Part shown: piece by piece, positions 29,724 to 30,082 of the stretch
How positions within the stretch are numbered: position 1 is the first letter of the stretch
Layout: the number at the start of each line of letters is the position of its first letter
Assembly (NCBI GenBank): GCA_009711615.1
Contig: VENI01000009.1
Coordinates: 186,001-250,000, forward strand
DNA from: Bacillota bacterium
GTDB taxonomy: Bacteria; Bacillota; Desulfotomaculia; Desulfotomaculales; Desulfohalotomaculaceae
Direction of reading: 5' to 3'
DNA: 64,000 nt
Program-made: the position numbers and the translations under genes
Notes under the pieces: model-generated
What the model was told of the DNA's origin: nothing
The model's input: only the letters and a program-made list of their open reading frames with translations
Database searches by the model: none

Positions 29724-30047
29724 CAAAAAAACCCTCATCCCTAAAAGGGACGAGAGTTATATTCCCGCGGTACCACCCTAGTTGGTATTAAAATGGTGGA
29801 GGTAAGCGGGCTCGAACCGCTGACCTCTTGAATGCCATTCAAGCGCTCTCCCAGCTGAGCTATACCCCCACGTTTTACCCACTTAAAGTGTTTTTAACGG
29901 ACACAAACCGACATGAAGTACATATCCCCCATGCTTCTCCAAGGCGAGTTCAACGTTACGCTCACCGCCTCGCACCAACCGACGGCTCTCTGATGAGCAG
30001 AACCATTTACTACTCCTTGTCATCGAATTATATTTTTCGCTGTGACG
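29724..30047 (-). promoter_or_regulatory. T-box riboswitch leader, Leu-type, interrupted by a tRNA gene
   Basis: Read on the minus strand. Stem I: CAAGG (30015-30019) pairs with CCUUG (29940-29944). An AGUA box lies at 30011-30014. AGAGAG (29986-29991) is followed by CCGUC, which pairs with GGCGG (29965-29969), capped by a GGUUGGUGCGA loop. The specifier strand reads GAA-CUC-G (29945-29951), so the specifier is CUC (Leu). After a candidate stem III comes a complete tRNA-Ala gene (29794-29869). Then follow the T-box AGGGUGGUACCGCGG (29766-29780) and a terminator hairpin (arms 29732-29742 and 29746-29756) with a T tract (29724-29730). T-boxes sense uncharged tRNA through specifier and ACCA pairing. 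This one fronts the acyl-CoA synthetase gene and leuS. Confidence 0.92.
29794..29869 (-). tRNA. tRNA-Ala (anticodon GGC), CCA encoded
   Basis: A perfect 76-nt cloverleaf on the minus strand. The acceptor stem GGGGGTA/TACCTCC includes the G3:U70 pair that defines tRNA-Ala, with A73 and encoded CCA. D arm GCTC/GAGC, anticodon arm CTTGA-ATGGCAT-TCAAG (anticodon GGC, reads GCC/GCU), T arm AGCGG-TTCGAGC-CCGCT. It has no promoter of its own that I can see and lies wholly inside the T-box leader, between stem I/III and the antiterminator. Confidence 0.97.
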
Positions 30048-30053
30048 AAATTT

Positions 30054-30082
30054 ATTATAGATTAAAGATTGTTTATTGTCAA
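30054..30082 (-). promoter_or_regulatory. consensus sigma-A promoter of the T-box/tRNA-Ala transcript
   Basis: Perfect TTGACA (30077-30082), 17-bp spacer and perfect TATAAT (30054-30059) on the minus strand. It lies just after the rsfS stop (30100). Expected start near 30047. It is the best match to consensus in the window, as expected for stable-RNA transcription. Confidence 0.92.

Follow-up and report, generated by a model that had tools for sequence, protein, structure and literature searches.

A tRNA-Ala(GGC) gene nested in the Stem III loop of predicted leucine T-box leaders

The leader upstream of leuS, the gene for leucyl-tRNA synthetase, in a member of the Bacillota carries a complete gene for a tRNA of another amino acid, tRNA-Ala(GGC), within the Stem III loop of a T-box. 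At least 91 verified loci share this nesting, every one of them with tRNA-Ala(GGC), and its occurrence across phyla is the most important fact about it. Judged from sequence, the embedded tRNA-Ala(GGC) is what sets the leader apart from known T-boxes. We put at about two in three the probability that the tRNA is a passenger: each transcript would supply tRNA-Ala(GGC), uncharged tRNA-Leu would decide read-through into leuS, and Stem III may hold the two halves of the switch together.

Anatomy of the leader

The window (the whole stretch of DNA analysed: 64,000 nt of a Bacillota bacterium, GCA_009711615.1, contig VENI01000009.1) contains an rsfS-like gene (30462-30100) upstream of the leader; the coordinates that follow are on the minus strand. 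The promoter, TTGACA-17-TATAAT (30082-30054), matches the consensus at 12/12 positions and is the sole promoter before leader and tRNA, as an initial annotation made from the letters had stated. A promoter scan of 29600-30200 found no second minus-strand promoter-like site; its one other match lies on the plus strand.

The T-box leader (30032-29743) matches RF00230 end to end in cmscan (model positions 1-219 of 219; E 1.1e-28) at 126.5 bits, with a curated cut-off of 93 bits, and scores highest among the 15 T-box matches in the genome; the tRNA interrupts it. The covariance-model check that the initial annotation had proposed for 29700-30100 thus finds both the T-box, Stem I included, and the tRNA. 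In the cmscan alignment Stem I spans 30026-29936, and the canonical elements claimed for it are all present: AGUA, AGAGAG, the GGUUGGUG apex, and a specifier loop reading GAA-CUC-G. The specifier codon, CUC for leucine (29948-29946; sequence and cmscan alignment), has its cognate tRNA-Leu(GAG) elsewhere in the genome (G000:C4, locus L305). Just 5' of Stem III stands the RRRxG motif, here AAGUG (29884-29880), as described in PMC7583486.

Next come the 5' strand of Stem III, GGUAAAA (29879-29873; cmscan Stem III columns), which is also the 5' leader of the tRNA, and the tRNA itself (29869-29794). ARAGORN, which reports no other tRNA in the window, identifies this as a 76-nt tRNA-Ala(GGC) whose CCA is encoded; RF00005 agrees (29869-29797, 63 bits), its match lying within that of the T-box. 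G3:U70, seven acceptor pairs, and ACCA are all present, so the description of a perfect tRNA was accurate. The tRNA 3' trailer is the 3' strand of Stem III, UUUUAAUACC (29793-29784; cmscan alignment and covariation), followed by the AA motif that flanks Stem III (29783-29782) and by the T-box motif AGGGUGGUACCGCG on the 5' side of the antiterminator (29779-29766; cmscan), whose UGGU pairs with the NCCA end of uncharged tRNA. The CCA ends at 29794 and AGGGTGG begins at 29779, which gives the 14 nt first noted. The intrinsic terminator (29758-29730), a hairpin of 13 pairs (six G-C) before a T-rich tail, completes the 3' end as annotated, and also forms in the minimum-energy fold.

The first open reading frame beyond the switch (29593-27953; ATG at 29593, in-frame TTG at 29629) encodes an acyl-CoA synthetase, AMP-forming type by its sequence character, and the second (27839-25359) is leuS, the conserved target. 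An acyl-CoA synthetase gene also lies between a leucine T-box and leuS in relatives (Desulfofundulus L086, G022, G024, and G052); so placed, it would share leucine control. Two further T-box arrangements occur elsewhere in the window's genome: a tandem pair about 100 nt apart (G000:C3:104354-104958), and a T-box with another, partial match to an antiterminator after it (G000:C6:37581-37928).

By every testable feature, the leader is most likely a leucine-specific transcriptional T-box, with predicted antitermination: it exceeds the RF00230 cut-off, and it has a fitting specifier, a Stem III flanked by RRRxG and AA, and a UGGN bulge with a competing terminator. Self-sensing, in which the T-box would read its own tRNA-Ala, is ruled out by the CUC specifier and the separate tRNA-Leu(GAG). 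The match first pointed out between the nested ACCA end and the UGGU of the antiterminator does exist; it is not special, being common to all tRNAs with A73, and the codon in the specifier loop calls for tRNA-Leu.

Stem III as the site of nesting

The initial annotation had placed the tRNA between the two halves of the T-box. Nested it is; more exactly, in the RF00230 alignment it appears as an 82-nt insertion that separates the 5' strand of Stem III from the 3' strand. According to PMC7583486, a T-box cannot sense the tRNA 3' end without Stem III, whose stem and loop vary inside the conserved RRRxG...AA flanks. Both flanks are kept, so the tRNA replaces only the variable loop. Among the matches listed, RRRxG lies no more than 45 nt from the tRNA in 88/91 nested loci, and AA lies 3-7 nt from GGTGG in 90/91.

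Whether the two strands pair was judged from alignments anchored at RRRxG and AA, with one arm shifted by 1-4 nt. In register, 68.7% of cells pair, versus 25-50% when slid, and two-sided changes number 125, versus at most 75. When arms were swapped between loci, the observed pairing was reached in 0/20,000 permutations; a leader's own arms bind at -8.0 kcal/mol, foreign arms at -3.4. (The permutation ignores relatedness, on which the slide test and the variety of pairs do not depend in the same way.) That variety comprises GC, AT, and TA at position 2; TA and CG at position 3; and AT and CG at position 4. An unanchored search for the longest helix in the flanks gave means of 7.3 versus 6.3 pairs, a weak difference as long arms pair by chance; the anchored tests are the valid ones. 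This pattern of pairing and substitution indicates that the Stem III helix is selected together with the tRNA.

The helix continues the acceptor stem of the tRNA, and in the window itself it has an internal loop. The minimum-energy fold of the leader keeps the acceptor stem, the Stem III extension, and the terminator, and distorts Stem I and part of the cloverleaf. In several Chloroflexota nested leaders (L080, L135, L136, L137, and L155), a further strong hairpin, about GAGGCCGGTYGT...GCGACCGGYCTC, separates the tRNA from the 3' strand of Stem III, whose loop thus comprises two domains.

Three known systems invite comparison. The usual leuS-type transcriptional T-box (RF00230) has the same Stem I (AGUA, AG bulge, GGUUGGUG apex, and specifier loop), RRRxG-Stem III-AA, AGGGUGGUACCGCG, a competing terminator, and an aminoacyl-tRNA synthetase target; here, however, Stem III ends in a complete tRNA-Ala(GGC) gene rather than a small loop, which makes the leader a tRNA precursor as well. 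In some T-boxes, Stem III or helix A2 carries an insertion (PMC7583486); these likewise have extra Stem III sequence and keep the discriminator core, but what is inserted here looks like a functional gene for the tRNA of another amino acid. Dicistronic tRNA-mRNA transcripts, and the leader-trailer stalks of stable RNAs, share the excision of a tRNA from a longer transcript, a protein gene downstream, and a flank helix, whereas here the flanks form Stem III of a riboswitch, and tRNA-dependent antitermination is predicted to control the gene that follows. The review of T-box insertions has no mention of tRNA genes (PMC7583486), and none inside a T-box was found in the open-access literature, including a survey of T-boxes (PMC2494555), the paper on the T-box database (PMC7778990), the T-box review PMC7583486, and a review of RNase P and T-boxes (PMC4919913); subscription papers lay outside this scope. 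The first impression that no such T-box had been described holds to that extent.

Occurrence in other genomes and in relatives lacking one part

The suggested search for relatives with the same nesting found it both near and far. Homologues of the nested leader, aligning over nearly the full length at 79-84% identity, are present in 4/6 other genomes of the window's family. An unbiased scan of about 85,000 species genomes then looked for the T-arm and CCA of a tRNA, whatever its identity, at a distance of up to about 62 nt from a T-box motif; the pattern requires an encoded CCA in the tRNA. Among the matches listed, those of the window's family included, tRNA-Ala(GGC) accounts for 92/100 with an ARAGORN tRNA; leaving out L082, a tRNA-Ala(GGC) that lacks T-box features, yields the total of at least 91. 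The other eight matches listed, with other tRNAs, are singletons or pairs in unrelated taxa, most without Stem I motifs and with a long gap, and were taken as chance.

Carriers include the genera Syntrophomonas, Thermosyntropha, Desulfofundulus, Desulfovirgula, Pelotomaculum, Symbiobacterium, Ktedonobacter, and Sphaerobacter; members of the Thermomicrobiales, Caldilineales, and Anaerolineae; and metagenome-assembled genomes (MAGs) of the Armatimonadota, Actinomycetota, Caldisericota, and Coprothermobacterota. RF00230 spans the tRNA in loci from Chloroflexota and from these last four phyla (E 1e-18 to 5e-8); taken together, the nested loci tested outside the window score 50-121 bits, many of them somewhat below the cut-off, with E 6e-26 to 5e-8. 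A census of the class with a strict pattern gives 33/113 genomes nested, and one of the phylum with a relaxed pattern 85/398 genomes and 57/266 genera, a few of these by chance; in Chloroflexota the count is 14/251. One nested locus (L096), from a MAG labelled Proteobacteria, has a Chloroflexota-type nested leader whose matched stretch is identical to a Chloroflexota genome (G127); the label is probably a wrong assignment.

The nested loci are uniform in most respects. Among the matches listed, G3:U70, the seven acceptor pairs, and ACCA are found in 91/91 nested tRNAs, and CUC stands in specifier context at 86/91 loci; the spacing from tRNA to T-box motif ranges from 23 to 63 nt. Wherever the downstream region is in view it encodes LeuS, directly or after another gene.

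Such uniformity bears on the least credible account, in which a tRNA gene merely landed by chance in a permissive loop, with no lasting significance. The variability of the Stem III loop (PMC7583486) would make an insertion easy to tolerate, and a chance origin is possible; chance persistence is refuted by the same tRNA, loop, specifier, and target gene in several phyla, with no other tRNA found so nested among the matches listed. Chance is likewise excluded as the source of the observed arrangement, because none of 100 shuffles matched the scan pattern and scores of genomes share the arrangement.

Relatives lacking one part are instructive. In the same class, three T-boxes (L244, L260, and L243) have no tRNA, and Stem III closes over a few bases; L244 reads GTGGGTAAAACGTCTTTACCAAATAGGG, so the helix survives loss of the tRNA. 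At L258 (G018) the leuS T-box is intact except that its Stem III loop holds a decaying tRNA-Ala relic (GGGGCTGTGGCGC...). By its sequence this relic is a stage of tRNA loss; L251 (G096) is probably a second such T-box. L341 also belongs among the relatives that keep the T-box without a complete tRNA, their Stem III loops being empty or holding a hairpin or relic. In two genomes whose T-box lost the tRNA, tRNA-Ala(GGC) is encoded elsewhere (L283 and L285).

Conversely, tRNA-Ala(GGC) and a terminator precede leuS with no T-box at L246, L254, L259, L261, L263, L265, and L267, and stand directly upstream of leuS in an Actinomycetota MAG (L320). L242, from the family to which the window belongs, shows this arrangement too, with tRNA and terminator before leuS, a promoter right at the tRNA, and no T-box. 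Loci of this kind (L246, L254, L261, L320, and others) share with the nested leader the tRNA, the neighbour, and the terminator between them, but have no Stem I, specifier, or T-box motif, and the promoter lies directly before the tRNA. The linkage of tRNA to leuS thus appears to outlast, or to predate, the T-box.

Since either part occurs alone, neither needs the other, and this separability in evolution argues against an obligatory interaction. Repeated loss of one part or the other could mean that the combination is a mild burden. The shared tRNA, loop, specifier, and gene argue for one founding event. On a FastTree phylogeny of LeuS, nested leaders fall in both the Bacillota and the Chloroflexota parts, and at least 19 state changes are needed (several "neither" tips are nested genomes in which an interposed gene cuts the upstream view, as at L311 and L326). 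Such a distribution would fit an old origin followed by many losses as well as it would fit horizontal spread.

A passenger tRNA in a leucine switch

No tRNA-Ala gene of any anticodon other than the nested one was found in the window's draft genome. Of 16 nested genomes examined, 14 yielded a match, and in none of the 14 was a further Ala(GGC) gene found; the nested locus must then make tRNA-Ala(GGC). Because it is the only GGC copy found, the nested tRNA is likely processed, charged, and used in translation. (The 55 tRNA matches of the draft, G000, which is 92% complete, include no tRNA-Ala(UGC); that gene probably sits in unassembled rRNA operons.)

From the arrangement of these elements we infer that the leader is expressed, that mature tRNA is released, and that the switch works, in the following order. 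One strong promoter would transcribe Stem I, tRNA-Ala, and the antiterminator/terminator in turn. The tRNA lies upstream of the terminator, so every transcript would carry tRNA-Ala whatever the T-box decides. With leucyl-tRNA charged, the leader would stop at the terminator, leaving a short RNA that serves as tRNA-Ala precursor; uncharged tRNA-Leu(GAG) would bridge the CUC specifier and the UGGU bulge, the antiterminator would form, and leuS would be made as well. The predicted products are thus two: a constant one, tRNA-Ala(GGC), and a conditional one, leuS (here the acyl-CoA synthetase gene and leuS). The tRNA-Ala would have its own job in translation and would not be a ligand of the T-box.

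The initial annotation had held that excision of the tRNA parts the codon-reading half from the switching half. It may do so, but the switch need not be lost, since the halves could stay joined through the paired arms of Stem III. Stem III would be the leader-trailer helix of the pre-tRNA, keeping the RRRxG and AA discriminator strands in place, and after RNase P and 3' processing had excised the tRNA it could still join the Stem I piece to the antiterminator piece. The decision is probably co-transcriptional, with RNA polymerase still close, because the terminator lies only about 70 nt past the tRNA. RNase P prefers T at position -1, and the T found there in 70/91 nested loci, among the matches listed, fits efficient cleavage. 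If processing were faster than the decision, or if the halves drifted apart, regulation would weaken.

The tRNA might instead be a regulatory part, its folding, RNase P binding, processing, or charging altering the switch. RNase P cleavage of full-length leaders, for example, could part Stem I from the antiterminator and so reset or disable antitermination; or the stack of Stem III on the tRNA could speed folding of the discriminator. In favour of this are the position of the tRNA within the discriminator domain, in a stem needed for sensing the tRNA 3' end (PMC7583486); the extension of the acceptor stem by the Stem III helix; and the constancy of site and tRNA identity among the matches listed. 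Moreover, RNase P is reported to be inhibited from binding when a 5' leader pairs with the RCCA end (PMC9433436), and leader-trailer pairing could on that basis tune processing. Yet the T-box is kept with an empty loop, hairpin, or relic in L244, L260, L341, and L258, other relatives keep the tRNA before leuS without a T-box, and the tRNA-to-motif spacing varies among the matches listed. We consider a regulatory tRNA unlikely. If it were one, leuS would respond to tRNA maturation or alanine supply besides leucine. The boldest version, and a rather improbable speculation, is a riboswitch that cuts itself out: maturation of tRNA-Ala would be an input, leuS would integrate two signals, the charging of tRNA with leucine and the capacity for tRNA processing (or the supply of alanine), and a two-piece T-box would be splinted by Stem III.

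It is quite doubtful that the T-box half is decaying or non-functional, its features being remnants in what is mainly a tRNA-Ala gene with an attenuator-like terminator before leuS. Relatives such as L246, L254, L261, and L265, which lost the T-box and kept tRNA and terminator, show such an outcome; but the window's T-box is the best-scoring one in its genome, the T-boxes that lost the tRNA stay intact, and even very distant loci share the specifier, the flanking RRRxG and AA, and the pairing of Stem III.

Very unlikely, too, is a promoter for the tRNA inside the leader, with the T-box as an independent overlapping unit. The initial annotation had raised the prospect of such a promoter, and L246, L261, and L267, which keep only the tRNA, do have one right before it. 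Among the tRNA-only relatives, however, it is seen only where Stem I is gone; by sequence, no minus-strand promoter-like site lies between 30054 and the tRNA in the window; and 45/76 nested loci examined have a promoter matching at 11-12/12 positions before Stem I.

With tRNA-Ala as a passenger, a single RNA would regulate by reading one tRNA and also serve as precursor of another, for which no further gene was found in the genomes concerned. T-box surveys and tRNA annotation, run separately, can hide such overlaps. The nested leader offers a natural test of three questions: how the speed of a T-box decision compares with that of RNase P; whether a T-box can function in two parts joined by Stem III; and how one promoter may serve both a constant supply of stable RNA and an attenuated gene.
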